Origin: Tubiluchus corallicola
Taxonomy: Eukaryota; Priapulida; Priapulimorpha; Priapulimorphida; Tubiluchidae
DNA length: 64,000 nt
Assembly (NCBI GenBank): GCA_030141605.1
Contig: JAQGDQ010000129.1
Coordinates: 361,281 to 425,280, forward strand
Direction of reading: 5' to 3'
Shown here: positions 3,172 through 61,315 of the stretch, in pieces
Layout: every line of letters starts with the position of its first letter
Position numbering within the stretch: the first letter of the stretch is position 1
Notes under the pieces: generated by a model
Databases searched by the model: none
Seen by the model: the letters and a program-made list of their open reading frames with translations, nothing else
Told to the model about the DNA's origin: nothing
Program-made: the position numbers and the translations under genes

Positions 3172-3451
3172 TTTGTGTTAAACTTCTTGACCATCATCAT
3201 TACTTCTATCCCATATGGTTAAAACCAAGCACCTCAGAAATTCTTCTGCTCTCTGTGTTCGCACATCGCTACTGGTGTCCTGAGCGTGGGAACGTCGAAA
3301 GTCAGTGGCTCAGTGCTCGGTGGATCATAACCATGCACGTCACTCGGCGGAGGACCAAACAACGTGAGTCCAAAGGATGAGTGAATGTACTCACTCTTCG
3401 TCCGAGCGATGGCGCCACGTTACATGTAAATAAATAGGACTGGCTTTCAAG
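3172..3451. promoter_or_regulatory. Candidate bidirectional promoter between Fringe and syntaxin-8
   Basis: Only 280 bp separate the divergent start codons of Fringe (minus) and syntaxin-8 (plus). The interval is visibly richer in G+C and CpG than its surroundings (for example around 3290-3420) and contains a CACGTCAC element near 3335. A small hairpin, GAGTGA/TCACTC, lies near 3380-3397. I see no convincing TATA box. Shared-promoter function is inferred from geometry alone. Confidence 0.55.
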
Positions 3452-3471
3452 ATGGATGGCTCTGATAGTTG
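3452..3471 (+). CDS. STX8: Syntaxin-8 exon 1 (coding part)
   Basis: Only 20 nt: ATG plus five codons plus two bases (MDGSDS and the start of a Trp codon), then donor GTAAAA. Joined to exon 2 it gives MDGSDSWLIKYEAC, parallel to the MAPDPW start of human STX8. Position just downstream of the putative bidirectional promoter supports it. A transcript read would settle it. Confidence 0.75.
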
Positions 3472-6400: not shown

Positions 6401-9400
6401 CTATGTTAAGTTTACTAAGTTAACTCACATATTACTTTTATTAGCTGTGCACATTTGATTTGATAATTTTGCACATCTACCAGGGAATTAAAAGAAACGC
6501 AAATTTGACTTGACCACTGTGCATGTAACATAGATAGCATGTTACTCTGTTTGATGAAAACTGGGCACTCTTTGATTGTATAGTTTGTATTAAGTTTAAT
6601 ACAACCCTTGCATATTGAATTTAACTATGCAAAAAGTTACAACACTATAGGCATTAGTCTGCTTCTACATTTTGCGATCCAGATCATTCTGTAAATGTGG
6701 ATACATTGCACCATTAGAAGACATAGTTATTGTCCACATTTGATCATGGTAGTTTAAACAAGGTTTTGGGTAATTCTTGCTTATTTACTTTTGTGCTTTC
6801 ATTTTCATGTTGATACCTGTTCACTTTGTGTGGTTAATCTTCATTCTGTATGTCATATTTTGCACAATTATGTGTCCAGTTTTTTTTTCAGTATAATGTC
6901 AAGTTTTTTTTCTGTTTAGCACTACGTAATACTGCCACCTGTTATCAAATGCTTGAATTTCATTCATTTTTTCCTTTCTTATTCAGAAAGCTAAAGCAGT
7001 TTTGATAAAATATTCATTTATTTTGCTTAAATTAAATAATTTAGCTTAGTTTTGTTTATTGAAAGTTACAGCACAAAGTGCACATGGTTTTTGCAAATAC
7101 AAGTACGATATAAAATCAAATAGAAAATTAAATTTAGATGACATTACTATAAATAGGCTGGTAGATTCCTTTATTACTTAACTAATGCCTAACAGTTACC
7201 GTGATGTTACAATCAATTAATTATATGTCAGACTCACACAGGTTCACACAGCAGATGGTCCAGCCTTAATATAGCAGTGCCATCTAGTAGCAAAAAGTAT
7301 AACTTCAAAGTTTAATCCGGCTATATTCAAAAGTAAAGTTACTTTCTGTTACGTATACTTTTTGACATGTCCAAAATACATTAGAGCATTGTCTGAAATG
7401 TGTTTGACTTTTGCATTTGCTGCTTAGGCCCTTCTTACGTAATTAACGTGTATAAAACTTTTTCACTTATGAGTAAAATACTTTTTAAGTTAAGCATGAT
7501 TTTTGCTTTATTTTCAGGTTAATAAAGTATGAAGCATGTGAGCATTTGAGTCGTGAAATTATGCAAAACTTAGCAGAAAGGAACCAAAGCCAGAATGATA
7601 GTGCTAGATATACTCGGGTACATGTTTTTCTAAGTGAATGTTTTATTTTTTATCAAAAGTTATTTGGTCCCTGATGTTAGTTGCCATTTCTTTATCCTCT
7701 GATAGCTTATACATTATCTATGATAGTATTTTAGTAAATATAACTGCATGTAATCATATGAATGCATGAAACCAGTACCAAATTTGAAATTCTGAAAAAG
7801 TTTCTTCTTTCAACTGGGACCTGAAAGCAGGCTGTCTGCTGCACTAAGAATTTTGTAAATAATTAATTTTTTATGAAAATTTATATTTAATTTTGTCTTA
7901 ATGGGTAAGGTAAGTGTTTCAGAATCTATTGGGTTAACTATAATTTGTATAGGATAGCTTGATTGATGTGTTTATTAGTTGTAGGCAGAGGCTGATGTGT
8001 TTCAACTTGTAGCTTAGCTTGTAGCCTTATAATTTAATTTCTCCAATCTCACCGTTTTATTATAAGAATAGGTCATAAGAAGGAGGTGTTATTGACCATG
8101 AAACCTAACATTAGCTTGCCACTTTTTGTCTTTACCTTATGAATGTATTTTCACCATAATACTACTAGTATAAATATGAAAGCATTTTTTTATTTCAGTT
8201 ATCAGCAAATATTCGGCAGTCTCTCACAGTCTTCTCTGCTGATCTAAGTGCCTTACAAAATAGGCTACCTAGTACAACCTTTACTTCTAAAAATATGTAT
8301 CCTTTTTGATATTTTGGTTGTTCAGCCGTATGGCAGAGTTGCACATAGTTTTGGATGAGTTAACTTGCCTGACATTATAATGAAGGGTCATAAAATTACT
8401 GTTCTAGATTATTGCTTGCCATTCATCTGCTAGACATTTTTTCTAGGCTGTTGCCATCATATTTACACTTGCGGCAGCAAAACCAAGATAGACATGTTGA
8501 TAAATTGCATACACATTAGTAGATATTGTCAAGCCACAATTATTAGTTTTGATAGATTGTTAGTGTACAATTGCTCAATTAACAAGTATAATAATATTTC
8601 TAAATAATGTGCCCAAATTCAGTGACTAGAAGGTTTAAACTTGGAGAAATTGTTTGATGTGTGTGGTGGAATTAATGAAACATGACTATGCGTTTGTTTA
8701 CTTAAGGCAGTCTCAGATCCTCACATGTGATTGAAACTCGATTATACTGAAAAGTCAAGTAAACTAATAAAACAAACCCGTACACCTATGGTCATAATTA
8801 CTTTTATGGCTATAACTCAAACTCGGTTTTGACTGCTATGTGTTTTGCAAAGCCTTTACAAATAAACTATGGAGAAACATTTTTTTAAATTTAATTTCCT
8901 TGTTTTAGTGCACCAATAAATGAATATATATATATATATATATGCTTAACACATGCTTAATCTGTGCTTATGGTTTTGTAACTAATCAATCACTGCTCTA
9001 TTTGGGCCGTGGATGTGTGTATATCAGCCTCTAGTTTTCTCCAAGTGTCATATTTAATGAAATAAGAAAATTCTCATTCTTTCACGTACTAGTCCATTTC
9101 TCAGTTTTGGCTTGCATAATTTGGTTTTGCTTTTGTAACTAATCAATTACCGCACGTTACCTCTACTTTTTTCTAAGTGTCATAGTTAATGAAACAAAAA
9201 ATTCTCATTGTCTTACATTATACTAGTCCATTTCTCAGGATTGGCTTACATAACTTTTAAGCATATTGCAAACTAACTAATGAATCTATACTAAACTTAA
9301 CCACATGAGATATCAGCTAAACGAGATGCTTGAAAACAAGTGACATAAATTTCTATAATAACTGTGCTACATTCTACAATATAATCATCAGATATTTAGT

Positions 9401-12400
9401 TTTTTTGCAAGCTTCAGTATGCTAGGAAAGTCACCACAATAACTGATAAGCTGCTGCGACAAGTGTCACTAATAGCATTGAAATTATGGGAGAAATAGAG
9501 TTTCCACTAGCAGCTGACATACGAACGTTAGTGTAAACATTATCTGTAACCGCAAACACCCTAGCAGGAGAGCCAGTACCATCCCTTATTTTCATTGGAA
9601 TGGCAAAGACTTTTGCTCCCGTTGGTGGCAGTTTGTCAAGATTGGCAACATTTTCCAGCACTGGTATGTCTTCAGAAAGCAGTGTGAGGTGTACATTAAA
9701 CCTCTGTGCTTTACCGTAATCTACTGATATGCAGTCCACTCCATACATTTTAATACGGCGTTGTTCTACCAACCAAGCTGCAGCATCTGGATGAAGTCCT
9801 GGATAGTGGAGTTCACTTTCTGTCCATTCAGCTGTGCTTCCTAAATAATTCAGCGCATTTGGCCAGTATCTATGCCATCCCGTGTTCAGAAAGAAAAAAC
9901 TGTGCCTTGGTATTTTGCCATATTCTCTTTCCCAATCTTTTATGTCATCTACAGTACATTGGTAATCCCTATTTCTTCTGGTTTTAGCAGTAATATCAAT
10001 ATTTACGGCTTCTCCGATCAGTTCGTCTAAGCCTAGCTCGTGAATACCTCGCAGCCCACGCACGCAATGCCTTGGCGCATCCATGTGTGTGCCCGTGTGC
10101 TCTCCCGTGCAAAAATTGTTTACTTCCCAGTAATTTCCATTTGGATCTCTTCCTTTCATGGCTCTAGTCAAGTTGAATGGCTTGATGAGATCTTTTGCTG
10201 GGAAGAAAACCATGTCGTCATTGGCATAGTCATAAGTCAAATCAATTATTGCTGCACTGCAACTGCAAACAACCATTGCAGCAAAGATGTGGCATATGAA
10301 TACATCATTCATACTTATTCTTTCTTTGTCGAAACCTGCAAAATATCAAGCGATAGTTGACTTTACAATTTATTAAAAAATATCAAAGTAAGTGTGACTG
10401 ATATGGTGCTGGATCTTTTTTATCAACTTTAGTTAATGCAAATGACGAATTTACTTAGCATTTTTACATACACTATAAACTTTTACACTGCAGCATGATT
10501 TCAAAGAATTTTTTGGGTTTTACAGCTGCTGTTTTATAATGTTTTAAAATGAAATGTTGTATTTTTACAAATAATTGCACCTTATATACATTTTTAAAAC
10601 GAACAAATGGAATTATTTGGCATGTACCTTAAACTTCACACTTGTCCACATTCTTTATTGTTAGCTTAATTATTTTTAGAAAACACAAATATGCTGAACA
10701 AACTACTTGAAAAATATGGCATGTGCATACTAATAAATGTTCTAAGACCTCTGAAACACAGTTTAAACACTAAATAAAATTATAGAAAACTGAACAGGGC
10801 TTGATTTACCTGATATAATTATTGTGACTTGTATGAAGCATCATAGCAGATCACTTGTGCTGAGAAATTTCACTTGTTACAAAACTATATATAGCAGTGG
10901 CAGATGACAGTTAAAAGTTTTTCTGTGCTGTTACACTGATTACAGCTAGGGACACTCGTTCAAAAATTCCTTATGGATCAATATGGTTAACAATTACTTA
11001 TACTTTTAGAACTATATTGACAACAACTGCTGCATAAAAAATTATGCCTACTGCCTGATGGTAGCTACTAGTGTATAGTTGAAGTATTGCTTTTTAAATA
11101 AATATTCTTTTGCTTGTTAAAAATTAATAACTACTGCCAGTAGCAGCAGACAGCAGTAAAGTCTAATAAAACTCTCATACCTGGCAAATGAGCAAAGATT
11201 CTAAAGAAAATACTCTGCAGAGGTTCAGCTTGGTTGTAAAAGCTTTCACTTTCAAATGCAACATGCCAGGGCCCAGAATTTGCAGTGGCAGCTAAACACA
11301 TGTGCCAAATGGTATCTATCTGTGCCTCTAAATATGCCTGCCTGTCCTGTACGTGTGGCATCTTGGCATTCAATCTGTCTGCTTAAGATTTTAACTTGTG
11401 ACAGAGTGGTTTAAGGCATCTGCTCTTGCCATGATTTTTTTAAGTGTATTTAATTTAATGTTATCAATAAGGAGAGAACTAATTACTCAAAGACAGTTAG
11501 GTGCTAATTCAGAACCATTTATAGGAATACAATAAACTTTTGTAAAGTCGATTAGGTATTTACAACAAGCCAAATATGTAATGAATAAACAGGCCTGTGG
11601 AAAATAAATAAATACAGTAACATATAGCTAAGTGTTTGAAAACACAGTTAAGGGAATTCAACTACTTCGCACATTAAGAGAAGGCTTATTATGGTACATA
11701 AATAAACTTTCTTTCCCAGTTATATGTAGCTCTGGTCACAATGCTGAAATTATTAAAAGCAGCTTTGTGGCCAGAGGCACAAATATGGTCATTAATACTA
11801 GATTGAGGAGAATTTTTTAATTTCTTGGTAGTTCTAGACGAAATACCCAGTTGTATTCACATATACTTACTTTAAAGTATCTGGACGTTTTGCCATGGTA
11901 CGCAGCATTGAAGCTGCTACATTGAAATCTATAAATAATACCAGACTGTAAGAGTGTGGGTATTTTATCTTTAAATGTGAAGAAAGAGCCTAAACTATTG
12001 CCACATTTTAACTCGAATGTGTAACTGAACTGAATATGGGGGTATAGTTGCTTAACGATTTTGTTTTTCACTTCCAAAGTCTGGTGACCAATAAACTGTA
12101 TGAGTAAATATACTATTTTTGGAAACAGACAGTATGGTGATTTTTTGGAAAAAACTTCATCAAGATATTTTTTGATGGTTAAGTCAATGAATCACATTAG
12201 AAATCTGTTAGAAATTTAATTTTTTTTATAGTATTAATGTTTTCATGGAATTGTGATATTTTTGTTGATAAGTTATGAGTTATGATGATTTGTTATGATA
12301 AGTTTGTTTGTTGATGAAATATAAAAATACAAAATACAGTAGCTATCCGTTAATGTATCTATTTTTTTTCTACAGGTCTGTCTACTCATTAAGTATTTGA

Positions 12401-15400
12401 CTTCTTGTAAATACATAATTTTCTGTACTGTATGCTGTGCCTATAAAACTTGTTTGTTTGTTTGTATGTATAAGTCTATCACAGATGATTGCTGCAATTG
12501 ACAGTCGAAATATTTGGTGACATGTTTTTTAAACTTCTGTAAACTTATAGTTTTTTGTTTTTGTAGGACATATATATATATATTCTTGGCTTGATGATAT
12601 ATGTATAATGTCCTTTCTTTGCCATCATCATCAATAGTGATGCAGTCTGCATGATTTAGAAAGAAGTCAAGAGACCAAAATGTTTGGTAAGTTAACTTTG
12701 TTCGATTGTTTGCATTAAACCTCAATATCATAATCACTGATCAATCAGGGTAACTCAGTAATTACAAAGTGAGACCTAACTTAGCCAGTTCTCAGAATCT
12801 CAGAGTGAGAAGTGAAGAATGAAGGACCTTGATGTTTTCCTGGGTTATTTTGCTTAACAGATTCTGCCAGAGCTATCAACATTAATAGACTTATGTTGTG
12901 TGCTGGTTACCAGCTTACATAACAGATGTGCTGGTTGTTATTAAAAATATGTAACAGAAAGAGTTGTTATTTTTAATGACAAGCTGTTGGACACTACCTT
13001 TATTCAGAAAACTACGTTTGAATCCAATTTAGCTACATACTTGTTTATGCGGTGCGGTGTAATTAATTGCAAACAGATTAGTGTAGGTATAATGATTATG
13101 CATCAGAAACAGGGGCAGAACTAGGGGGAGCGAGGGGGGCGCATGCCCCCCTGTCAAAATTTGCGCCCCCCCTGCAAAATCGGACGAATAATTTTTTTTT
13201 GCAGTGAAAATTGCAGTTCGCATGTAATCATTTTCAATATGAATTAGAATTAGGTAAAAAAATGTTCGCTACGCCGTCCTACACACATGATAATTATATC
13301 ATTCACGGTGCATTGGTAATCCCTATTTCTCTGTGTTTTAGCAGTAATGTCTATGTTTACGGATTCTCCAATCAGTTCATCTAACTCAGATCGTTAAAAC
13401 CCTGTGATCCACGTATTAAATATCGTGGAGCATCCATTTGAGTTGAGTTCCAGTATGTTCACCTCTACAGAAATTTTTCATTTCCCATTCAGCTCCATTG
13501 GGATCATTTCTTTTTATGGATTTTGTAATATTAAATGCATTCACTAGTTGTTCGTCTGGATGAAACACCATTGCATCATTGGCATAATCATAGCTCAGAT
13601 CAATTATCTCTCCACTGCAGATGCGCATACAGAGGCTAAGCATAAAGGTAAAGCCCTGCACTGTCTTCATGTTTCTGTTCTGGTAAGCTCTGCAAATTAA
13701 ATATTTTATAAACTTATTTTCTCCAGTTACGCATCAGTCAATACTTTTAATTTAGCAGCTATATTTATTTGTGGATAGATTTATTTATTTATATAATATG
13801 CTACTTTTTCTGCAACTACTGAACGATTTGTCACAAATGACGTATCAAACCAACTATCTCATTTTCTCCCAGTCCCTTTAGGTGGTTTGTTTTTCGACTT
13901 CGGTCATCTGGAAAGAACAACGGGCAAAAATCTCCATAAATCGGCATTTTACTCCGATTGTTTGCAAAATTTTTAAAACAGATCTGAAGAATGGAATCAC
14001 GAGAGACTATACAATAACATTTAAAAGAGCTTTTAGCATAGCGTGTGTATGCTAATGTGTATGTATACCATATAATTTGGTTTCCTTGGGAGCAGCAGTA
14101 AGCATTTTTCTGGAAACACCTAACCAATTTTTTTTTAAAATACGTGCAGACAGCCTCTAGTAAAAAATCGATTGTTGAAATTGTTATTGGACAACTCCCA
14201 GAAAGAGGTCAAAATGGTCCAGCTAAAGTGTGACTATTTCATTTAGAGCTATGCCCACTTAAAGAAATGAGGAGGAAGTATTTCAGAGCTCTTTTTCAAC
14301 CTCCCCGGCAATGGTGGTTTTGTCTGGGTAGTGCTGGTGTGTTGCGGGTGTCGGTGATATGGTATCACTGGTATGTGTTTGGGTTTTATTCATTAACTTT
14401 GTTCTTTTCTTGCCCTGTCTTTGATTTGTGTATTGCAGTGATATCTCTTTAAAAAGTGTAAAGTTATTGCTTTTCAACTTGACTGCTCTAACCCAAGATT
14501 ATATTTTTTGTTAATTATATGAGCTAATTCGATTTTTATACGAGACTGAAATTGGTCATGCTTGAGTCTTTTGTTCAAAATTATTTCATTTTTGTCCTTT
14601 GCAAACAACAAAATTCCTGGATGAAATGTTTATCACAATATGCTTTTTGCATCATTCGTTAACCAACCAAATTTGAGTATAACTGGATTAAGAGCACAGA
14701 AATTATTTTATCTCTTTTGTTTGATTAATAACAATAACAGATCTGTTTGGGGGATAGCCAAATGGAAACAATGTGTGCTTATCAGCCAAAGTTTAGCAAT
14801 ACTGAACCTCATCACTGATGGGCGCCCTCCGTGTTCGATTCTCGCTGTAATGCGCTTTCACGTGGGTATGGACATACCACCATATAGATATACAATCAGT
14901 GTCACCCTGAAGGAATCAATCTGAAATCACTAAATACCAAAGAAAAAAGTTAATTTATGGAAAGAAAGATGTGTTAAAAATTGAAATTGAGCCTAGATAT
15001 TAATTAAACAAGAAGCTTGCATCAAATGTTAAACATAAAATACGTCTAGGTCAGCTAGACATAAGAAAAAGTTATGCTTCATCCTGCAAACTGTGACAAC
15101 CATTGATTTGATTAAAACAAATTTCGGCTCAGTACCGTTGCATTATCAAATAAGAAGGATATTTACCACACTTAACAACAAATAGCTATATATATATACT
15201 TAAAAAATAGACTTACCTTAAATTGTCTTTTTCTGTCGTCTCACCATTGTCAAATTTACGTGTTTTAGCTCGCTAATTTTGCCTAGGTAGAAACCACCTG
15301 ACTGTCAAAAACACTGCAGTTAGTACATGTGCAACATCATTAGGACAGACATTTGCTGAGTCATTTACATTTACGCGCAGCTATTTTAATATGTTAAAAT

Positions 15401-18400
15401 CCGACACGGTTTTGTGGTCCTTGTTATTTTTCAAGCAAGCGCCACACTTGTTCTTGCAAGGTTTTCAAAAATATGTTTTTATAAATGTTCCACTCATGTT
15501 TCGTCCCCCTTAGAGTGTTGACCAAATTCATTACGTTTTTTTAATTTTGAGACGTTGGCAATGTGGCAATTTTTAATTTTAATTACATATTAGGTCTTTT
15601 ATCTAATAACATGTTCGCATATTTGCAAGTTCTTTTTCTTTTTGCACAGTTTTCTACACTACACACGACTGCCACGAGCTTTATAGGTTAACGTTATATT
15701 AAAATTACTACTTAGTGATAGTAATATTGTGCAGCAAAAGGAGTTTGTATTTTGACGTTTTGGCTACCTAATAGTCACTATCTTAGCTGTCTAATAATAA
15801 CTCCAAGTTAACAGGATTATCACAAAAATGTTTATTTTTACACAATATAACATTTAGTACGGTATTAAAAACACCCAAATTAAGGTGCCACATCAATATT
15901 GCTTTCATTCTCTAGGATTCTGTTGAAATGTAACATTCACAAAATACAGTCATTTCACAATAACTAAAACGCTACCTTCTATGGAGAATATTAATGTCTA
16001 AGTTCATAAAAACACTGATTTATTACAAGGGAAAATATAAACAATGCATGGTCGGTCGTATGATTGTCGGTATTTATAAGAATAGAGTTGCTAGAGCAGC
16101 CAAGAACACGATGGCTGTGCACACATGTCTGCTTTTCATGGCTTCATTTTTAATGGCAAACAGTCTTGTTGGAGCACCAGTGCCGCCTTTTATATACATT
16201 GGAATAGCGAAAACCTTGGTTCCTGTTGGGGGCATATTGTCCAAATTTGCAACGTTCTCCAGCAGCGGGATGTTCTTGCGCAGAAGTACCTTATGAACTG
16301 GGAAAGTTTTTGACTGCCCGTAGTCATTAGAGACCGTGTCTACGCCGTAAAGCTTAATGTTACGCTCTTCAAGCAACCATTTAGCTGTATCAGCATGTAA
16401 GCCAGGGAAGTGCATTTCGGTCCACATGTCACCGCCTTTCTTCATTCCTAGGTACTTCTCTTCATCTTGGAAGTGCCGATGCCATCCTGTATTTAGTAAG
16501 AAGAGAGCGCCATCGGGAATTTGGCCATGGTTGGTTTCCCATTCTTTCATGTCTAGCACTGTGGCTTGGTAATCGGGATCTTCCTTGGCCTTCTCAGAAA
16601 TGTCAACAACCACTCCTGGTCCAATGACACTTTCTAGCTTGATTTGTTCAATTGGACGACCATTTATAACAAAATGGATGGGTGCATCCATGTGTGTTCC
16701 CGCGTGTTCTGTAGTTTCAAAGTTATTTGATTCAACGTAGACATTGTATGGTCCTGCGGCACCTTTATGTGCTCGGCTGAGGTTGTAGCGAAAGAGGCCA
16801 GGCCAGAAGGTCATTCCGGTGTTGGAATACTGGTGTGTTAAATCAATCACTTCATCATCTTCCATGTCGTCGGTTGATTTTTCTTCCTTTTCGCAAAGGG
16901 CAGGAATGACATTTGCGCTTAGCAAACCAATGAATAGCAATAATTTTAGTGCCATTTCCTGAAAATCAACAAAACAACGAACAGTGAATTGACAATGACA
17001 TATTTTTTACACGCTGGAAAAAAACGTGTTGGTAGTACGGCTTGCATTGCAGTGTGCACTTATTGCATATAACTGGATGGCGTAACTCAATGGTAGCGTG
17101 CTCGCTTCCACCTGGGTGGTCTCGGGTTCAACTAATGATCGAGCCATACCAAAGACAAAAAATGGTACAGCTGGTTCTTCGATCAAGCAAGCGGGTTTAT
17201 CGAAATGCAGCTCGGTGTAAAATGCAGGTAACAAGTATATAAGTATTGAGTTACTTAAGGTGTTATCAGCTCGGTACAACAATTTGGGTCATACAAAACC
17301 AGGTCAGACCAACAAAAAGCAATAATTTTATCAAGTGACACTTAGTAAATCTTTACTATTGTTAGTTTGTTATCCATACAAAATTGGCTTCATGCAAAAG
17401 TTGTGTGCACGCCAGTTTTGTGCGGGCGGTTAGCGTCATACAGTTTGCTGCATACACATTTTTTGCAGTGTGAAACTAGTGTATAAGGCTTCTTAAAATT
17501 TACGAGCATTTCTTTTGAAGCTGTAAACCGTAGACGGTAATGATTACGTGCAAACAGCGTTTGACAAAGCTCATGTAACCATCGCCTGTAGTGTTTTAGT
17601 ATATTTGTGATAACATAACTGCATTTATAAATTCTTTGTCACCTGGCTATTTTGTTCTTTACAATTAGACTTTATAACAGTTTCTATCATGACGCTTACT
17701 AGAGGCTCAGTAAAACTAACAAATTAAAGTAATTATTCTGAAAAAACGTATTCATTTTTGCACTGTGGTTACCGAGAACCGTTAAACCAACTGGTTAGCT
17801 TTAATGGGCCTTTACAAATCTATTTTACTTCTGCCTACGATACGGACCAGCACGGATTTGCCCTGTCAGCGCTATCACAGTGTGCAATTTAAAAACGGAT
17901 CTAGAATTTCTGTTTTATTTATCTTTCAAAGAACTGCCCATTAAAAACAATTTCAGAACACAATGTGCGCTTTTAATTTTTGTGACTTTATTGAAAATGC
18001 ATTGGACTAATTATAAACTGGACTCGGTTTCTCCGCTTGTACATTTTTGCAGCGTTGGCTGGATGCAAGCGTTCGTGCAAAGCTTGCACGATATTATTTC
18101 GGGCACTTTGAGTTCTTTACGACGATAACATTTACTTATAACTTGAAGTTTATTTAAAAAAATATATAAGTGAGCAGTAAGATGTAAAGAGGAAAATGAA
18201 AAGTGAAAATCTTTCGTCCTATAGGTATAGCTATCTGCCGTTCATATTGAGTGTTTTGCCACGCCCGTTTTATGCACTGCCGATAACCTGCCATACGACA
18301 TGGGTGCGCATTTTAATTTTTAATCCGCGTTATTCACCAAACCTTAAAAATCGTTTTTAGGTAATAAAAGCAGTTAAACAGTAAAAAAACTAAAAGCATC

Positions 18401-21400
18401 ACTCACCGTTTTTTTCATGCAATCGTTTCCTGCAGCAGATACTAAGCAGCTGAAGACTATCCTATAAGATAAGTTATTACAAATCACGCACCTAATCCAC
18501 GTATCGTGTCCAATTCCCAGCAGTAATGTCAATAGTTTTACATTGGGCGCATCCACCGCGTCATTCAACCGTGCACATCATATGCATGGGCAGGCTGGCA
18601 TCCACAATCTCACTCTGGCTACTTAACTGCTTTGGCATAGGCTAATAGGCTTGTGTATACCCACAGTCTGCTTATTCTCGTTTTGAAATGTCCTTGTCAA
18701 ACATTCTGGAATCTTACTGCAAACTCTGCGTGCTCTGTCAGTGTGGCCCGAATGCAGTAAAAATAGAAAAAAATTATCCCAGTTTGCGCCTGGCAGGAAT
18801 GTGTTGTGGGCATTTTCAAGTTCCAAGTTTTTTGGAATTTTAAGTATGGCTGTGCTCTGCAAGCAGGAGTCTTGCAGAAAGTGTTCCAACTTATTTATTC
18901 ATTAATTTTGTTCTTCGTTGTACTTGCCGTTCACCATTAATTTTAAAATCGGTGCCGAGTTGAAATTTGGCCTATTGGTAGAGGGATGCCCAGGTCTTGT
19001 GCAATTTATAAAAATCGGGTCAACGATGAGGATCAGCGGTCACTGGCGACTGTTGGCCTTAGAAAATTTTCGATCGCGCAAAAAAGTCGAGGCCCCGTGA
19101 AACCAAGGCTTTAACAGTTCGAGAAAGAATTTTGGTTTAACAATTTGATGCAGGCACATTTGAATTCAGGTATAGGTGAGTGAGGTTACTCAAGGTTAGA
19201 ATGCACCCTGTAACTTGATCGTGATCGTAGGCTGGCTGGAGATTTGGCATGCATGTGACTGCTGGCAATAAAAGTTTGCACTTAACACTTCCATTACAAA
19301 TTTACAATGTACAGTACAACAGAAAAGTTCCCAAAACGAGAGAACAGAATTTGTTGTTCTGTCAAAGAAGCTTCTCAAGTTTACCACAATGACCAAAGAG
19401 CGTTCATTTTTCGTAAGAATTGTCCGAGCAAGTATGATCTCGATTGCTGTATACACACCTATCAAAAGAGTCGATCTAAATTTACTCTATTTTGTAGACG
19501 CGACCCTATGTGTTGTTTGTTAGATTTGATTTTTATGACTTTGCTTCAGTTTTTTGATTAAAATTTGTCACGCTATCCACGTTGCTTAACAAAACTCTGC
19601 TAGTAATAAAGTATTCTAGTGCATGTCAACGGGGAGGTTAGTTTGAACGTACTTGGTTTAACAAGATGCCTATCCAGGCAAATTTGACTATAACAGTTAT
19701 TTCTCTAACTATTATAAAATGAGACGCACTAAATAAAAACAAAACTGTAGTCGGTAACTTTGTGTAGTAATATATTACTGTCTTAGCTTGAATTCGCGTG
19801 AGGCCAAATTCAGTACAGACTTTCGTGCTTCGTTTCCGCTTAACACCCTCCTAACTACGATCATTTTCCCAAATGTTACTGCTTAACTTGTGGTCGGTCA
19901 AACGTTTGTACCACATTTGGGACTTGCTGACTGGTCGAGCTTGGTTTTAAATTATTTATAACTTATAAATAGTATACCACTAAGCATGCAGCGCTGAGTA
20001 CTATGTCCCTGTTAAATTTACTGCTGTCAGTTGCGTGCCTTTCTCCACTCTGAACATGCCTTGATTTCATTGGCAGTTGTTCAGCGTTGTCATCAATGTC
20101 AAGACGTTGAAGTGTCTGGCCATGTGTGAATGTTGGTCTTAGCTGTAAGGTTAGCACCAAATCCCCGCCAATTTTCCTGCTACACTGCCTAGAGTTTAAT
20201 GTGAAGTTCTGAATCTGTTGCAGCAAAAGCATTTCTGTCATAGTCTGCTTTACAAACTTATGATGTAATTTTAAATACAGATTGGGCTATTAAGTTCATC
20301 CTTCAAACCAAACTTGATACATATTAAAAATCTACTAGTGTTTAAACATGCATAGAAATTCCGGTAATTTTAATGTCATGTTTAATCAAAATGAAGCTAA
20401 AAAAATTCAATTTAAAAATGTTATTTTGTTACCCTTTTTACCATTCTACGTGTAATATTTTTCAAGGCTTGTTTCGCAAGCTTTAGAAACAGAGGTTGAG
20501 ATTTACAATTCATGGTTAGAAAATTGCTTTCTTTTTTAACATAGTAATGCTTACCAAAGTCATTTTCATTTAGTGATGGTTTTACATTTTTTATTTAAAG
20601 TCTAATTCCAAATTGCAAAACCCAGGTGAAAACCAAATTGCAAAACTGCTAACATGATTACCTATGGCAAGTAGCACCTCCAAATTATTACTTACAAATA
20701 CTGTACATATGTGCATCTATATACTGCACTAGCATCTATATAGCCTTCACAAGCCACATTTTTTTGGAACTACTTTTCTAAACCTTAAAGAGACTAATTG
20801 AAAGCACTAATAATGCTTTTTAAAATGTAATTAACTATACAAACAGGTAGGCAAGAAACATAAAAATTACAAGCATGAGAGCCATGTTAAGGTGAATTAA
20901 GGTGACACTGCCATTTACCACAGCAAAGACCCTTACTGGTGCACCAGAACCGTCCTTAATTTTCATGGGTATTGCAAAGACAGTGCTACCCGTTGGTGGC
21001 ATCTCATCTAGATTTGCTAAGAAATCTATGATTCCGATACTGTGGTGTGCCTGAATTCTATAGTGAACTCTAAATGTTTGATCTGAGCCAGGGTCCAATC
21101 CCATATCAGATCCAAATAGCTTGATCTTTCGTTCTTCAATTAACCACTTCACAGCTTCAATGTCTATCCCTGGGTAGTGCATCTTGCCTCTTCTGTCTAT
21201 TCCAAAGTAAACCTTTGGGTCATCCCAATATCTGTGTCTTCCTGTAAGTTAAAAATAGTTCATGTGTCATCAAATGAAGGTTTCATGACATCACAGTGAC
21301 TAGCATAGAAATGTGTTTTTGTAAGAGGAGAATATGGATATAAAACCTTATATATTGTTATTGCTATGTATGCTAGTACATTGCAAGGGTTTTCTATACA

Positions 21401-24400
21401 TGCATACCCGAATGGTCTCATCAGACGAAGTACCTCAGTATCGATAAATTTTTGTAAGCATTACTGTAGCAAATTTCTTTACAGTCATCATTAGCCTTGG
21501 CATCTAGAGTCTCTCTGCACAGCATTTATCATACACTTCAAGGATAACTTAGTGTTCATCCTTTCTAAAGATAAAAATAGATTTGCCACTGTTGCACATT
21601 TCGCTGATGTTTTTCTTCTCTCTGCCATTAATCAATGGTTATGCTTTATTAGGATCATTCAAAATATCATAATAAGATTACCAGTATTTAAAAAGAAAAT
21701 GCTGCCATCTGGTATTCGCCCGTGTTTCTCCTCCCATTCTTCAATATCATTCTGTTTTGCTATGTAATCCCTGTCTGCCATTCCTTTCTGTGAGATGTCC
21801 ATCATTACACCATTTCCGATCAACTCTGATAGTGTCATGTCACTGATGGTTCTTGCTCCATATCGAAAATGCAGTGGCGCATCCAGATGTGTTCCACTGT
21901 GTTCTGATGTGCAGAATGAGTTTGTCTGGTAGTAGACACCATGGTCAGACTTTCCTCTGTGAGCTACAGTCAGATTAAATGGAAGATGACTGTCTGCTGG
22001 CCATGTCGTCATGCCGTTGAAGTATAAGTGTGTCAGGTCGATGAATCTTCTTCCTTCCTCGGCATTAACATTAAGACATCCTAGTAATGCTAGCACAGCA
22101 ATACTGAAGGATACCATTTTTGTGCCTGTATAGTTACAACCACTGGTTCAGTATGACTGATAGACTGCTAAAACTTCGGGTGTTTTCTTTAGGATAGCAT
22201 ACGTCACAACGACAATATTTTCTCTTTTCAGCATCTGTTTTGAGGTGTGAAGCTCCACACCCCATAAAGTTTTTACATGTGCTCAGCACTATGTAATGTT
22301 GGGAAGTTGGGCTTCCTAGCTAATTTACTATAGAGCCTGGCAAATTATTGCATATCATGAACAACTTATTTGTAGTAGTTTGTTATGAAAACTAGAAAAT
22401 CTATAAATAAATGTTGCTTGTTCTGGAAACAGCTAGAACATAAAATTGATAAAATAAAACAGTCACTCAAACGTTGTGGAGATTGAACAGTAATGCTTGC
22501 AGATTATTCTGTTTGTCATGTTTGTTTTAAGATTAAATTTTTATTTCATTTATTCCTTAATGTTTTGCACTTCAATTTTGAAGTTGGTCATTGAATTTAA
22601 ATGTTGTTTAACTGTTTAAGTGATTTAAGTTAGAGCATTAGATTTTAATGGAAAACGCTTCTTAATTCTCACATTTGATGACAAAATTTCTGAAATTCTA
22701 CGTTTATTGTTATCGAGCAAAATTTTCATTGTTTTTCATTTTATCATTATTGTGTGCTAGTTGCATGTTAGTTTTAATTTCTTTTATTAATTTGCAAGAA
22801 GTGATTTTTCTTGACCATAATATCAACCAGAACTCAGCGAGAAGTAGAACGAAGGCAACGTCTTCTAGATGACTTGACTAGTAAGCAACGCCAGTTTGAA
22901 GAAGCCTTTCAAAGCCGGTCTGCTGGAATGGATAACAGGTGATTTATGAGTTGCAAGTTGTTGGTGTCTTTACTTAACACATAATTCCTTAGATTAGGAA
23001 CATTAATAGTAACCATCACATAAAGACCCGCTTACAGATTTATAGTGGCAACTGTCCTACCATCATCAGCAGCAGCAGCAGAAGAAGATGAAGAATGGTC
23101 CCATGTTCAATGGCATAGGGCTAAGTGGTTACAGCATCTGTTTTTACTGCCTCGTTTCACAAGAGGAACATAATAGGGTGCTCAGTTAAGGCTTACTAGA
23201 CCTAAGAAGGCAACTAGAGAAATGGGATTCAGTGCCCTTCCGCTCCTCCATGATACCTTTGCGAGCCTGTCTTCAAATGAAAAATAATTTAGTTCATTAT
23301 TTACAAATTAGCACCACAGAATGATACAGCTAAGTTACCGCTAAATAAATATGTGCGAGTGTGGCCTTGTGTGTGAGCATTTGCATTGACGGTAGGAGGA
23401 CTGTGGCAAAGAGTTCAAAATTCAGTCACAGATTTTTATTTTGCTTTGGGAATAGAGGAAATAGAGGTTTGTGATTTTGCATAATAAAATTTTTATATTG
23501 TTTTTAAGGTTATCATTATTTGGACAAGGTAATCCATCTGGAAGCAGGATAAATCCATTCATGGAAGACGATGATGAAATTAGAAATTTAGACCCCAGCC
23601 AGATTAGACAATTCCAACAACAAACAATTAGAGGTAAAAATGTTTATTTTTATTGTTGAGTGTTATTTGTCGCTTTCATTTTTTTTTCATTCGTTCTTCT
23701 ATTCAGTATTTCTCTTTTTGTTTATTTGTTTGATGGTTTCCTTGTTTACTTGTTTTTTGACAGTCTGCTTGTTTGTTTGTTTGTTTGCCTGTCTGTCTTC
23801 TAACTTGTTTCTAATTTGTTGTGTGATCATTTTTTCTTGAAAATAACCATTTTCTGCTTGATTGTTTTGCTTTTCAGACATTTGCTGCCTATTTTTTATA
23901 TTTTTGGCTTTTTTCCAATTACACCCGATAGACTTTTACACACATAGCAAATCTCGTATGTGCTTGGTGGACCTGTTTTGATAAATCACATAGATGGGAA
24001 TGGTATTTTGATGTTTTTGGAGCGGCACAACATAATTCACCGATGTGGGAGGAACTAGAAATGCATAATTTGAGAAAACTTATACATGTTTTCTCAACCT
24101 ACTTTTAAATTGAACATTATCATTCATGTTCTGTGGCCTTGGTGAGGAGTTAAAATTTTACAGGAATATCGCAATTGTTCCGTTTCTGTGGATGTATGCT
24201 GAAATATGTGTTAAATAAAAGATTTGAAAATTTCTGACTTTTCAATAATAACAATGATTATGACAATAATGACAATGATGATGATGATGATGATGATGAT
24301 GATGGTGGTGAAGGTAGTAGCAATAGTAGTAATAGTTATTTAAGTGACGTCTTTAAAATATCATAATTTCAAAATTATAATTACATATCATAGAATAAAG

Positions 24401-26538
24401 AAAAGATAAAATCAACCCATCTGGGCTTATAAGTCACTAAATATATATACATGAAGTCTATTAGATAACAAAAAAGACTCTTGGCTGCCATGCAGTTAGA
24501 CAGTTTATTTACATATACTGTGCTACCTTTTCACATTAGCTTTCTGTATGAAATTTTCGAACAAATCTAGTTAATTTTATTTAAATTTTCCTTGCAGTGT
24601 CATATCAACAAAATTATCGTTTACAATTATCTTAGAAAAGTGGTTCTGCCAGTATATTCTTCTTTTTTGCAACTTCATTCTATTTAGAACAAGATGCTGG
24701 TCTTGAAGCTCTAGCTAAAGTGGTTGCCAGGCAGAAAAACATTGCTGGTGCAATCGGAGATGAGGTCGACTATCAGAATGGTACGTTCTAGATAAGATAA
24801 TCATAAAATATCACAAAAACAAAAGGCACTTTTGATAAAGTGTTGAAAGTACACGACTTCGGTCCAAAAGAGCAGATCCAAATCTTATTAAATTATAAAC
24901 TGCCACTTTGATTCCTGACCGCTTGACCTGAGCTTTTATGATGTTTGCAAAGATTCAAGGTTTATTCATAAGCAAATGATGTCAAGTGAGTGGACAACTG
25001 TTTTTGCTTTTAAGTTGAATATGACTAGCTAATTCCTTACCAGAAGAAGTACTGTTTTTAACCAGTAATTATGCTAAATTTGCTGTTGCCTTTTATTTTT
25101 GTCATTTATTTTCTTAATTTCTAGGTTATCATGTGTCACTTTTCGTTAAAATTGATCCTACTTTTGAATGTTTTTAATCATGAGTGGACTATGTAAAGTG
25201 AACTCAGAGCTTGAGAAGCAGAGAAACTGCTTTCTTTTTACATACTGCACACTTTAAAAACATCTGGAACATACAAACAAGCAGCAATAATCATTGTTTT
25301 TCACATCCATTTAGTCAAGTAGGCAGACAGAAAGTCAAGTAGTTGTCATTCTTATGTCTATCATGGTATAATTTGCACACCCATTTTGGTTGCTCATGGT
25401 CAATTTTCTTCACGTAATAATGTTGAAAAAACGATATTGATTATGTATTTCAATTAGTTTTTGCACATGCCTAATACCAGTAAATTTTGTTGGATTTTTG
25501 TTCATTTAGCTTTCCTGCTTTCTTTCTCTAGAGCTTATAGATGACATTCACGATCATGTAGAAAGAGCAGATCAGCGATTAATAACAGAGACAAGGCATG
25601 TGAAACTCGTTGATCGCAAGTCAAACACCTGCTGTAAGTATTCACAATAATGATTTAATAGACATATTACCTCATCAAGCACTTCTTAAGTTAACACAAA
25701 TAAAAATGAAGGGTATAGAAATGATTCAAAGGTAAACTCCCTTTGTGGGAGTCATCATCAGATATACAAGGGAGTTGAAATTATGATTAAAATTTTAACT
25801 CATCTCTATAGCCATTTATTTTTATTTGTTGAAGTGGTCGCTATTAAAATAATTAAAATAGTAGGTGAGAAATCACCTATGAGTATGTTATGTACAAAAT
25901 ATACAAAAGTTGGCTTTTTATCTGAGAAACATACATTCACTTGTTGATGTCAGATAAAAACGTTGATTTTTTTACTTTATTTCTGAAATAATGTCATATT
26001 TTTTTATTTATAAACCTCATTGTTAAATGAGAGTTTTTGTTGCCAATACTACTGTAGCTTTCGTTTTATATAACTTAGCTCATTGTAACTAGATTAAAAA
26101 GATAATGTATTTTATGCATTTCTTCCACAGCTACTTGATCGTTGTTTTTAGTTGTATGAATAATATGATAATCCTACCTTAACTGCTAGTACCATTTGTG
26201 TAGCAGTATTAGAATTTTTAGATATAATAAAAAGAATAAAAAGAATAAAAGAGAGTAATAAAAGAATGACTATAAGTAGATTTGACTGTAATAGAGTGGA
26301 ATGTATTTAATGAAGAATCATACTGAAACAAAATGTTAATGTCTTTTCTTTATATTATTTATAATAGTGAGGTACTTTTCTTATTTTTATCTTCTACTGC
26401 AAAACTTTAAAAGTAATTATTGTAACTTATTTAATTATATTTAAATATTTAAATTTTGCAGGTTACTGGGTTATAGTTGTCCTGCTTTTTGTAGCCATCA
26501 TCGTGGTAGCTGTTGTGCCTTATAAAGGCAAAGCATAG
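3452..26538 (+). CDS. STX8: Syntaxin-8, complete eight-exon gene
   Basis: Qc-SNARE of endosomal fusion complexes, tail-anchored in late-endosome/TGN membranes. Model: 3452-3471, 7518-7617, 8199-8296, 22831-22938, 23509-23633, 24688-24780, 25532-25633, 26462-26538; 723 nt, 240 aa, against 236 aa in human. All junctions keep frame. Domains: N-terminal helical region (1-105) containing the ITQ...RRQRLLDDL block shared with vertebrate STX8; acidic linker; EQDAGLEAL opening the SNARE motif (151-205). The central Q of VDYQNELIDD (about residue 180) is the zero-layer glutamine. The VDRKS juxtamembrane motif comes next, then a transmembrane helix at 217-234 and the short luminal tail PYKGKA. Intron 3 (14.5 kb) has U12-type signals and hosts the antisense cyclase cluster. 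The weakest part is the 20-nt first coding exon (MDGSDS plus part of W), chosen because it joins in frame to an N-terminus matching the family. Confidence 0.93.
3739..4465. repeat. Inverted-repeat region, possible composite MITE
   Basis: The left end (3739-3772, containing GACATGCAATTTTCAGTTGTG) and the right end (4434-4465, containing TTGCACAACGCAAATTGCATG) are imperfect reverse complements of about 32 nt. A further direct copy of the left end lies at about 3903-3925. No transposase frame is visible inside. This looks like nested copies of a non-autonomous element rather than one clean unit; I saw no clear target-site duplication. Confidence 0.5.
3763..3866. repeat. Small foldback element, copy 1
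   Basis: About 104 bp bounded by inverted repeats of the form CAGTTGTGCAAYTAAAA. It resembles a second copy in opposite orientation at 46223-46341 along much of its length, including an internal block like AATCTGTAAAYAACTAAAGTC. No coding capacity. Confidence 0.65.
4807..4851. repeat. Near-perfect hairpin (about 20-bp arms)
   Basis: The arm GAAGCTCGAAATAAACA is followed by a three-base loop and its exact reverse complement; the symmetry continues outward with one extra base. It lies in intron 1 of syntaxin-8. It could be a short foldback or a MITE scar. Confidence 0.75.
7518..7617 (+). CDS. STX8: Syntaxin-8 exon 2
   Basis: Acceptor TTTTCAG, donor GTACAT. Encodes residues 7-40 (Trp completed across the junction), including IKYEACEHLSREIMQNLAER, the amphipathic start of the N-terminal helical region. 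Confidence 0.9.
8199..8296 (+). CDS. STX8: Syntaxin-8 exon 3, ending at a U12-type donor
   Basis: Acceptor TTATTTCAG. Encodes residues 41-72 (LSANIRQSL... to TSKN) and two bases of an Ile codon. The donor reads GTATCCTTTTT, the minor-spliceosome 5' splice-site consensus, not a U2-type site. Confidence 0.9.
8918..8944. repeat. (AT)n microsatellite
   Basis: Short alternating AT run in the U12-type intron, between syntaxin-8 exon 3 and the first cyclase gene. Confidence 0.85.
8972..9257. repeat. Diverged tandem duplication, two units of about 140 bp
   Basis: Unit 1 (8972 to about 9120) and unit 2 (about 9122-9257) share, in the same order, GGTTTTG...TTTGTAACTAATCAAT, AAGTGTCATA, TTAATGAAA, TTCTCATT, ACTAGTCCATTTCTCAG and TTGGCTTRCATAA. 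It lies just 3' of the cyclase gene at 9431-10312 in that gene's sense. No coding sequence. Confidence 0.8.
9431..10312 (-). CDS. Secreted cyclase-family hydrolase A (kynurenine formamidase / isatin hydrolase-like)
   Basis: Seen: an uninterrupted 293-aa frame. A hydrophobic signal peptide occupies about 1-21, followed by IIDLTYDYAND. The metal-binding signature HTGTHMDAPRH gives His72, His76, Asp78 and His82. The second part of the active site, VHLTLLSEDIPVLEN, places His208 and Glu220 with the 12-residue spacing of bacterial KynB. Further family motifs are NTGWHRYW, GVDCISVDYG and PPTGAKVFAIPMK. After residue 268 small residues (SAASGNS) precede a hydrophobic C-terminus, like a GPI-attachment signal. 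Known: the family (PF04199) uses divalent metal to hydrolyse amide or lactam bonds such as N-formylkynurenine or isatin. Inferred: extracellular, possibly membrane-tethered; substrate unknown. The CDS has no intron, but a 3' splice-site-like sequence lies 23 nt upstream of the ATG, so a 5' UTR intron is likely. It is nested in a syntaxin-8 intron on the opposite strand. Confidence 0.92.
   Translation of the reverse strand: MNDVFICHIFAAMVVCSCSAAIIDLTYDYANDDMVFFPAKDLIKPFNLTRAMKGRDPNGNYWEVNNFCTGEHTGTHMDAPRHCVRGLRGIHELGLDELIGEAVNIDITAKTRRNRDYQCTVDDIKDWEREYGKIPRHSFFFLNTGWHRYWPNALNYLGSTAEWTESELHYPGLHPDAAAWLVEQRRIKMYGVDCISVDYGKAQRFNVHLTLLSEDIPVLENVANLDKLPPTGAKVFAIPMKIRDGTGSPARVFAVTDNVYTNVRMSAASGNSISPIISMLLVTLVAAAYQLLW
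10313..13294. other. Between cyclase A and the cyclase pseudogene; no gene seen
   Basis: AT-rich intronic sequence with a short TATA run near 12568 and a G/C-rich dispersed repeat at 13108-13180. Short open frames such as 11817-12077 and 12441-12737 have no recognisable motifs. Cyclase A's inferred 5' UTR exon should be somewhere here, but I cannot place it. Confidence 0.5.
13108..13180. repeat. G/C-rich dispersed repeat fragment
   Basis: An abrupt island of G runs and C runs (GCGAGGGGGGCGCATGCCCCCC and a second C7 tract) in otherwise AT-rich DNA. The G-run/C-run symmetry around GCATGC allows it to fold back. It resembles termini of non-autonomous transposons from memory only; I cannot name a family. 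Confidence 0.5.
13295..13670 (-). pseudogene. Truncated, frameshifted cyclase pseudogene B
   Basis: The first 255 nt read as an intact frame (13416-13670): a signal peptide, then IIDLSYDYANDAMVFHP and FCRGEHTGT, very close to cyclase A. Inside the metal motif the frame is lost: the bases for MDAP (ATGGATGCTCCA) are present but in another frame, so the ORF stops at 13416. Homology resumes in shifted frames (DELIGES, then VNIDITAKTQRNRDYQCTVND) and ends abruptly near 13295, where cyclase A continues with KDWERE. At least two frame disruptions and loss of more than half the enzyme make it non-functional. The 3' splice-site-like sequence before the ATG is still present (boundary near 13689). Confidence 0.88.
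13671..16073. other. Between pseudogene B and cyclase C; no gene seen
   Basis: AT-rich intronic sequence. It contains one tRNA-like SINE head at about 14747-14850. Nothing else is recognisable; open frames near 13831, 14267 and 14640 have no family motifs. Confidence 0.5.
14747..14850 (+). repeat. tRNA-like SINE head (low confidence)
   Basis: An A-box-like GATAGCCAAATGG is followed about 75 nt later by a B-box-like GTGTTCGATTCTCGC, the pol III internal promoter layout with class II (long variable arm) spacing. The cloverleaf does not pair well, so this is not a functional tRNA. A non-tRNA body seems to follow to about 14930. Confidence 0.4.
16074..16955 (-). CDS. Secreted cyclase-family hydrolase C
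   Basis: Seen: an intact 293-aa frame. A signal peptide (about 1-21) is followed by an acidic, lysine-rich insert (22-35) absent from copy A, then EVIDLTHQYSNTGMTFWPG. The metal signature HAGTHMDAPIHF gives His84, His88, Asp90 and His94. VHKVLLRKNIPLLEN gives His221 and Glu233 with the expected 12-residue spacing. NTGWHRHF, GVDTVSNDYG and PPTGTKVFAIPM are also present. The C-terminus ends in about 17 hydrophobic residues after SRHVC, a plausible but less typical GPI signal. It has the full set of metal ligands expected for an active kynurenine formamidase/isatin hydrolase-like enzyme. There is no intron in the CDS, but GATTTTCAG ends three bases before the ATG, which marks either a 5' UTR intron or a trans-splice acceptor. 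It is clearly diverged from A, so this is not a recent duplicate. Confidence 0.92.
   Translation of the reverse strand: MALKLLLFIGLLSANVIPALCEKEEKSTDDMEDDEVIDLTHQYSNTGMTFWPGLFRYNLSRAHKGAAGPYNVYVESNNFETTEHAGTHMDAPIHFVINGRPIEQIKLESVIGPGVVVDISEKAKEDPDYQATVLDMKEWETNHGQIPDGALFLLNTGWHRHFQDEEKYLGMKKGGDMWTEMHFPGLHADTAKWLLEERNIKLYGVDTVSNDYGQSKTFPVHKVLLRKNIPLLENVANLDNMPPTGTKVFAIPMYIKGGTGAPTRLFAIKNEAMKSRHVCTAIVFLAALATLFL
17077..17152 (+). repeat. tRNA-derived pseudogene or SINE head
   Basis: GGATGGC at the 5' side pairs at six of seven positions with GCCATAC at the 3' side. Between them are a D-arm-like AACTCAATGGTAGC, a loop reading CTTCCAC (TCC anticodon position) and a B-box-like CGGGTTCAACT. Anticodon and T stems contain mismatches, so this is a degenerate tRNA or SINE head, not a working tRNA. 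Confidence 0.5.
18480..18590 (-). pseudogene. Possible degraded cyclase remnant
   Basis: On the minus strand GTGGATGCGCCC (as in the MDAP codons) is followed by GTAAAACTATTGACATTACT, close to the NIDITA codons of copies A and B. The roughly 80 nt normally between them are missing. No frame is open across it. The match is short and could be chance. Confidence 0.3.
20835..22117 (-). CDS. Secreted cyclase-family hydrolase D, two coding exons, altered active-site region
   Basis: Model: exon 1 21682-22117, exon 2 20835-21241, phase 1 intron of 440 bp with donor GTAATC and acceptor TTACAG; 280 aa. Signal peptide about 1-19, then FIDLTHLYFNGMTTWPAD. The metal signature HSGTHLDAPLHF is intact (His73, His77, Asp79, His83). 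Differences from A and C: NTGW has become NTGR at the exon junction; GVD..S.DYG has become GSDMGLDPG; and the second ligand region reads VHYRIQAHHSIGIIDFLANL. Here His205 is kept, but the conserved Glu is replaced by Asp218 with one extra residue before it. The C-terminus after NGS is hydrophobic, GPI-signal-like. Inferred: structurally intact but perhaps with changed metal geometry or substrate. An acceptor-like sequence (CTATACAG) ends 8 nt before the ATG. Confidence 0.9.
22118..22830. other. Upstream of cyclase D, 3' end of the U12-type intron
   Basis: About 700 bp. It holds the inferred 5' UTR intron boundary and promoter of cyclase D (minus) and the U12 branch-site motif at 22807-22816 (plus). 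No coding sequence. Confidence 0.5.
22831..22938 (+). CDS. STX8: Syntaxin-8 exon 4
   Basis: Encodes residues 73-109, beginning ITQREVERRQRLLDDL, the best-conserved block of the N-terminal half. Acceptor ATCAACCAG (U12-type intron end), donor GTGATT. Confidence 0.94.
23509..23633 (+). CDS. STX8: Syntaxin-8 exon 5
   Basis: Encodes residues 109-150, from LSLFGQGN through an acidic MEDDDE stretch to QIRQFQQQTIR, the lead-in to the SNARE motif. Acceptor TTTTTAAG, donor GTAAAA. Confidence 0.93.
23700..23830. repeat. Degenerate TTTG/TTTC tetranucleotide tract
   Basis: Runs of GTTT and TTTC on the plus strand, including four consecutive TTTG units near 23770-23787, in syntaxin-8 intron 5. Confidence 0.7.
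24268..24308. repeat. (ATG)n microsatellite
   Basis: About ten GAT units followed by GGTGGTGAAGGTAG, in syntaxin-8 intron 5. Confidence 0.9.
24688..24780 (+). CDS. STX8: Syntaxin-8 exon 6
   Basis: Encodes residues 151-181, the first half of the SNARE helix (QDAGLEALAKVVARQKNI), up to and including the zero-layer Gln in VDYQN. Acceptor TATTTAG, donor GTACGT. Confidence 0.95.
25532..25633 (+). CDS. STX8: Syntaxin-8 exon 7
   Basis: Encodes residues 182-215: the second half of the SNARE helix (ELIDDIHDHVERADQRL) and the VDRKSNTC juxtamembrane segment. Acceptor TTCTCTAG, donor GTAAGT. Confidence 0.95.
26462..26538 (+). CDS. STX8: Syntaxin-8 exon 8 (transmembrane anchor and stop)
   Basis: Encodes residues 216-240: the single transmembrane helix YWVIVVLLFVAIIVVAVV and the short tail PYKGKA, stop TAG at 26536. 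Acceptor TTTTGCAG. Confidence 0.94.
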
Positions 26539-33588: not shown

Positions 33589-60509
<26,921 letters not shown>

Positions 60510-61315
60510 AATTGTTTTTGTTTGTTTTGTTTACCAACTAGCAACTACCTGAGAAAAACAGATTGCACTCAGGGCCACGTCACGCTGATATCAAGCAAAA
60601 TGTGTGAACGCTTGTGATCACTCGTAGATTCTTATCTCGTTATCTTGTCCTGACATTAACTACGTACACACGCGCACGATTGTACGCACCGCATCAAACT
60701 CACTTTTTGCTATGATTTCCACCAAAATTTGATCGCAAGACACACGTGCGCTTTCTGATTTATTTATTGTGTCTTATTCGTCGGCTCAATCAATCAGGAG
60801 TATCGATATGGACAGTCCTAAATAAGTGCTTTACTGCGCAGCTGCCGTGTGAAGAAGACAAGAGGATCCCATCAGCGTGTGAATAGTAGGCGGGCAACCA
60901 GCGGCCCGTTGCCATCGCAAGCCGGGGCGATCAGGGGTGTACCAGGGCATGGATGCTGCTTACTCCATGAGCATTATTTACATCACAGAGTCTGGTATGC
61001 GCCCCTCTCCTCCGAATATTTCGATAATTGACACTAAATTTCTTATAAGTTTAGGTGTATGATATAAAAAGATGCGCCTAAGAATTAATAAGCAGAAGGT
61101 GACTGAAGTTTTAGTTAAAATTTCCACTTTTGTTACATGATTCTGAAGTTCTAACTTTACAGCCTAGCAAAACTACAGCGACATCTGCTCAGATAAGGTA
61201 TTTTTATAACATTTTTGAAGGCTGATAATACTTTGTTAAGTTTATTGGCCTCACCAAAAACGCGTCTAAATGAATTGTATGAATTCAGAGTTCACTGGTT
61301 GAAATTGCCAGTATA

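Follow-up and report, generated by a model that had tools for sequence, protein, structure and literature searches.

An antisense cluster of cyclase-family genes nested in a single syntaxin-8 intron with apparent U12-type ends in the priapulid Tubiluchus corallicola

The third intron of the syntaxin-8 gene (STX8) of Tubiluchus corallicola contains three intact genes of the cyclase family PF04199, along with a truncated copy; the four lie on the minus strand, opposite to their host. We examined this arrangement in a window of 64,000 nucleotides (C968:361281-425280) from a 343.5-Mb assembly; the window holds no Ns, and its animal origin follows from its genes. PF04199 matches and gene models bear out a preliminary description of the sequence, which had placed three intact and one broken cyclase-family gene between STX8 exons 3 and 4, and since every guest lies within one intron on the strand opposite to STX8, the array is a nested antisense paralogue cluster. 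The new element is the host intron, which by its predicted splice signals looks to be of the U12 type. The best overall explanation, which we hold to be moderately probable, is that an old antisense cyclase array occupies STX8 intron 3, is removed with it by U12-type splicing and has been the source of cyclase copies now dispersed through the genome.

The host gene can be followed over its whole length. STX8 runs from 3452 to 26538 on the plus strand in eight exons, whose GT/AG joins yield a single open frame of 240 amino acids and a stop. Its product has the features of syntaxin 8: it is a Qc-SNARE with one C-terminal membrane anchor, as judged by eye, and syntaxin 8 is its best match. In searches with the protein lacking the short first exon, the SNARE domain scored above the Pfam cut-off (PF05739, 27.9 versus 26.8 bits), and the sole solved structure matched at E <= 0.001 was syntaxin 8 (1gl2_D, E 6e-15), the match covering the SNARE motif. 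Intron 3 is 14,534 bp long, against 570-4,046 bp for the other six introns. The junction given in the preliminary description, 8296 to 22831, is exact, with a single open frame running over the joint. Because this frame is intact and matching U12-type signals stand at both ends of the intron, the two halves of STX8 are very probably one gene.

The same observations bear on whether the nesting is an artefact in which two separate loci were joined, an outcome that the preliminary description had named as fatal to its claim. The assembly may have trouble elsewhere, given that three contigs carry an identical sequence longer than 8 kb (described below). Against an artefact here, the phase 2 frame is kept over the joint, U12-type signals are found at both intron ends and the window has no gaps; in addition, other matches to STX8 among the loci fetched, a comparison that was not a genome-wide search for STX8 copies, came to two weak ones at prokaryote loci (E 0.045 and 0.90). 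We regard misassembly as extremely improbable.

By its ends, intron 3 looks like a U12-type intron, a rare class that is handled by the minor spliceosome and whose 5' splice site also has a GT form. The conserved U12 5' splice site RTATCCTT is present, and of the 7,244 GT dinucleotides in the window, counted over both strands, that of GTATCCTTT alone agrees with the U12 consensus at 9/9 positions; the other six STX8 introns reach 4-6/9 at their 5' ends and lack the U12 start motif, leaving intron 3 as the one of seven that has it. Toward the 3' end, the branch A of TTTCTTGAC lies 16 nt ahead of the last base of the intron, and this site agrees at 7/9 positions with the consensus TTCCTTAAC, whereas the best sites in the other six introns score 4-6/9. 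A search for TTYCTTRAC with an AG 6-16 nt further on, a pattern defined once the site had been seen, found one instance in the window, at the end of intron 3. In the published consensus, the 5' splice site reads ATATCCTT and the branch site, near the 3' end, TCCTTAAC (PMC2831892). The same paper tabulates syntaxin 6 of fly and human with a U12 intron (PMC2831892), and a review covers GT-AG subtypes of U12-type introns and reports that such introns are spliced out more slowly (PMC3584512). From its ends, we infer that intron 3 is spliced as a U12-type intron. A literature search on the U12 class of STX8 introns in other animals found no paper combining the two terms, and no case of a U12-type intron that holds a nested array is described in the available portions of the literature on nested genes and U12-type or minor introns.

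The guest genes are clear members of their family. Cyclases A and C match PF04199 with 137.5 bits (E 4.7e-40) and 146.1 bits (E 1.1e-42), and the two exons of cyclase D with 95.0 bits (E 6.1e-27) and 24.3 bits (E 3.9e-05), all above the cut-off of 23.1 bits. The full-length models of A, C and D have an intact HxGTHxDxPxH, the metal-site motif of PF04199. The open reading frame of cyclase B by itself has no Pfam match; within the window B is closest to A, and among the relatives compared it is 77.5% identical to a fragment elsewhere in the genome (L015) and then 72% to A. Among solved structures, the sequence of cyclase C best matches a cyclase-family protein (8f9x, E 3e-38), followed by isatin hydrolase (5nmp, E 6e-37). 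A structure model of C was weak (mean pLDDT 62.4, pTM 0.64, four aligned rows), and its identity therefore leans on the sequence matches, with which the fold matches agree. The best 15-residue hydrophobicity means in A, C and D are 2.15-2.48 near the N-terminus, 2.33-2.84 near the C-terminus and 0.91-1.33 in the middle, which suggests a signal peptide and an anchor of the GPI or a similar type. Taken together, A, C and D are probably PF04199 hydrolases with the fold of isatin hydrolase and bacterial kynurenine formamidase, secreted and membrane-anchored. Besides the five cyclase frames, intron 3 holds 17 open reading frames of at least 80 amino acids, none above the Pfam cut-off (a single match fell below it, DUF6650, 17.6 versus 27 bits), although shorter or spliced genes could escape such a screen.

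The wider family extends well beyond the intron. The genome has at least 15 PF04199 matches, namely three in the window (A, C and D exon 1) and the dispersed loci L002-L004, L005, L007, L009-L013, L014 and L015, the last of these a fragment. The matches L002-L004 lie on three contigs that share a sequence longer than 8 kb; it includes a cyclase gene, is 100% identical to the limits of what was fetched (L098, L099, L100; C156, C1309, C1753) and reflects either assembly duplication or very recent copying. The match L014 lies on a bacterial-looking contig (G000:C1761, 873,888 bp), where neighbouring long reading frames seem by eye to resemble gyrase A and thymidylate kinase, in an order reminiscent of Chlamydiae; the assembly may thus contain a symbiont or contaminant.

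We built the phylogeny of cyclase copies that the preliminary description had proposed, and it ran against a young local expansion of the nested genes. Of the 26 rows in the tree, 11 came from this genome and 15 were prokaryote loci, drawn from the 80 fetched (161 relatives were reported). It left out L003 and L004, which are identical to L002, L014 from the bacterial-looking contig, and the fragments L015 and B; the model of L012 lacks a start codon at its beginning, and L010 was trimmed to its intact first part. Three groups emerge: A and L002 (support 100/99), C and L010 (100/99), and D together with L009 and L011-L013 (100/100). All nine rows fall into a single clade (100/99), to which L005 and L007 are next (85/92), and within it the C and D groups are joined with weak support (82/77). 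A clade of A, C and D alone is rejected (p-AU 0.0003). The three are 47-54% identical to one another and saturated at synonymous sites. On this evidence they are one representative each of three apparently old subfamilies, each closest to copies on other contigs.

Patterns of change within the subfamilies are informative as well. In A/L002 and D/L009, non-synonymous change is low and synonymous change is saturated, pointing to lasting purifying selection, and C and the intact part of L010 have a dN/dS of 0.27 over 172 codons. Recent copies exist outside the intron: L012 and L013 differ from L011 by dS of 0.03 and 0.02. For the recent pair L011/L013, dN/dS is 0.92 on very few changes and purifying selection is not shown. 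All five D-type genes (D, L009, L011, L012 and L013) share an intron at one site, 21242-21681 in the window, that is absent from A, C, L002, L005 and L007. Since L005 and L007, on the outgroup side, are likewise single-exon, the intron was probably gained in the D lineage, and for the same reason we do not favor retroposition as the origin of the single-exon copies.

These results separate two parts of the earlier proposal that a whole expanding enzyme family sits in one intron. The nested array in one intron stands; the expansion is not supported, as the genes represent three old subfamilies whose closer relatives lie outside, as do the recent copies found. A young family growing in place would be in keeping with the tandem layout and with the resemblance of the relic B to A, but the divergence and synonymous saturation of A, C and D, the rejection of a nested-only clade and the location of the near-identical copies elsewhere make it very improbable. 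It is contradicted for A, C and D and could survive for B only.

We instead favor the origin in which the array came first. The array would have been founded before its three subfamilies diverged, would have stayed small, at three genes and one relic, and would have given rise to the dispersed relatives as copies were carried off to other sites. Each guest would be transcribed from its own promoter, and the host would excise all 14.5 kb through the minor spliceosome, so that the presence of guests would not have to interfere with the SNARE protein. If the intron was the common home of the three subfamilies, the array is probably old and probably the source of the dispersed copies. Guest and host expression, the direction of copying and membrane anchoring are points that we infer. 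Several observations weigh against this account. The tree can be explained with as few as three location changes, which fits three entries into the intron, while an intron-first history needs four (one entry and three exits), one more than arrivals. The branch-site match is also modest, at 7/9 versus 4-6/9 in other introns, and the pattern of branch site plus AG that was counted had been picked with TTTCTTGAC already in sight.

The competing history has the cyclases entering intron 3 independently at three different times, with the dispersed state ancestral. It attains the tree minimum of three changes, and the rows L005 and L007, which fall beyond the nine-row clade, are themselves dispersed. 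It also demands three arrivals in a single orientation within one 14.5-kb stretch of a 344-Mb genome, and it is the improbability of such same-strand arrivals that leads us to prefer the intron-first order. Nor do the fetched flanks offer much to such a history, as matches extend past the coding sequence in two cases only, the segment shared by C and L010 and a two-piece match between B and L015. The C/L010 segment is 85% identical in coding sequence and 80-83% in the flanks, and because it includes these non-coding flanks it is a DNA-level copy, made in one of the two directions. We consider three separate insertions unlikely.

A functional coupling of host and guests may also be imagined, in which an antisense transcript, produced by read-through of STX8 and a slow U12-type intron, tunes the cyclases or, conversely, transcription of the cyclases tunes STX8. 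All four copies are oriented opposite to STX8, and the apparent U12-type ends would fit with the slower removal of such introns (PMC3584512). However, four of four genes on one strand are expected from tandem duplication anyway, and the host and guests of the TipE cluster, a comparable nested family, correlate poorly in expression (PMC3240667). We give this idea little credence. Still less credible is a stronger version in which the U12-type intron is the mechanism itself: slow removal would retain in the nucleus a long pre-mRNA of STX8 that is antisense to all the guests, the activity of the minor spliceosome would set STX8 and the three hydrolases jointly, and this constraint would explain why the array never left.

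Other features surround the host gene (Table 1). Netrin and STX8 are tail-to-tail neighbors in human too (as NTN1 and STX8), and given that arrangement, an ancient netrin-STX8 microsynteny (window 46481-60530) is possible. On the other side, a Fringe-like glycosyltransferase exon at 2677-3177 on the minus strand (PF02434, E 3.5e-11) lies head to head with STX8, about 280 bp from its start at 3452 on the plus strand, and the interval between them is a candidate two-way promoter. A repeat-like stretch at 37706-38300 matches sequence near three of the dispersed cyclase loci, L097, L102 and L103, at 69-85% and is probably a mobile element.

Table 1. Coordinates of the STX8 gene, its nested cyclase genes and other features, as positions in the window.
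Feature	Position	Strand	Basis
STX8 exon 1, coding part	3452..3471	+	Start codon, GT donor, frame runs into exon 2
STX8 exon 2	7518..7617	+	Frame reconstruction
STX8 exon 3	8199..8296	+	Frame runs into exon 4 over 14.5-kb intron
STX8 intron 3, phase 2, 14,534 bp, apparent U12-type ends, cyclase array inside	8297..22830	+	Frame, splice motifs
U12-type 5' splice site (predicted) GTATCCTTT	8297..8305	+	9/9 positions of consensus
Cyclase A, single exon, 293 aa, HTGTHMDAPRH, hydrophobic N- and C-termini	9431..10312	-	PF04199, gene model
Cyclase B, truncated, frame-broken, A-like; nearest is L015 fragment	about 13294..13670	-	Sequence comparison
Segment around cyclase C, 4.2 kb, also on contig C1270, ~75% identical with gaps	14756..18966		Alignment
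Cyclase C, single exon, 293 aa, HAGTHMDAPIH	16074..16955	-	PF04199, gene model
Cyclase D exon 2 (D 280 aa overall)	20835..21241	-	PF04199, gene model
Cyclase D exon 1, HSGTHLDAPLH	21682..22117	-	PF04199, gene model
U12-type branch-site-like TTTCTTGAC, branch A at 22814	22807..22815	+	7/9 positions
STX8 exon 4	22831..22938	+	Frame reconstruction
STX8 exon 5	23509..23633	+	Frame reconstruction
STX8 exon 6, SNARE motif	24688..24780	+	Frame, structure match
STX8 exon 7, SNARE motif	25532..25633	+	Frame, structure match
STX8 exon 8, membrane anchor and stop	26462..26538	+	Frame; anchor judged by eye
Laminin-EGF exon, probably same netrin gene	46481-46867	-	Assigned by position
Netrin exon, tail-to-tail with STX8	59460..60530	-	Netrin-1, E 4e-139

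With the array, one more enzyme family and one more animal genome join the known antisense paralogue clusters within one intron, and here the cluster sits in an intron whose ends are of the minor-spliceosome type. Whether slowly spliced introns tolerate or regulate nested genes thereby becomes testable, and the array suggests that a nested cluster can be a long-established source of dispersed copies instead of a place where a family has recently grown.

The kind of layout, an enzyme cluster nested antisense in one intron, is already known, with a published precedent in insects, and the preliminary description overstated its rarity. In the flotillin-2 intron of insects, GMC oxidoreductases likewise form one enzyme family with several diverged paralogues in one large intron, nearly all opposite to the host; these paralogues are 27-69% identical, the intron measures 83 kb, and conservation has been shown in four insects (PMC1891103). 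The cyclase array differs from that cluster (PMC1891103) in family and host, in its smaller intron with apparent U12-type ends and in being seen in one genome only. The last intron of CG18675 houses the TipE cluster, where a gene family is also kept nested and shows retrotransposition and translocation, but its members are sodium-channel subunits, and the terminal exons of host and TipE overlap (PMC3240667). The NF1 intron genes OMG, EVI2A and EVI2B are several genes in one host on the opposite strand, although the available part of the source neither describes them as one enzyme family nor gives the intron class, and the KRTAP5 genes in MOB2 are a paralogue family within one host gene (PMC4394429). 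At the protein level, the guests resemble isatin hydrolase and bacterial kynurenine formamidase (PF04199) in sequence, fold and metal-site motif; unlike those enzymes, A, C and D are hydrophobic along a stretch at each end.

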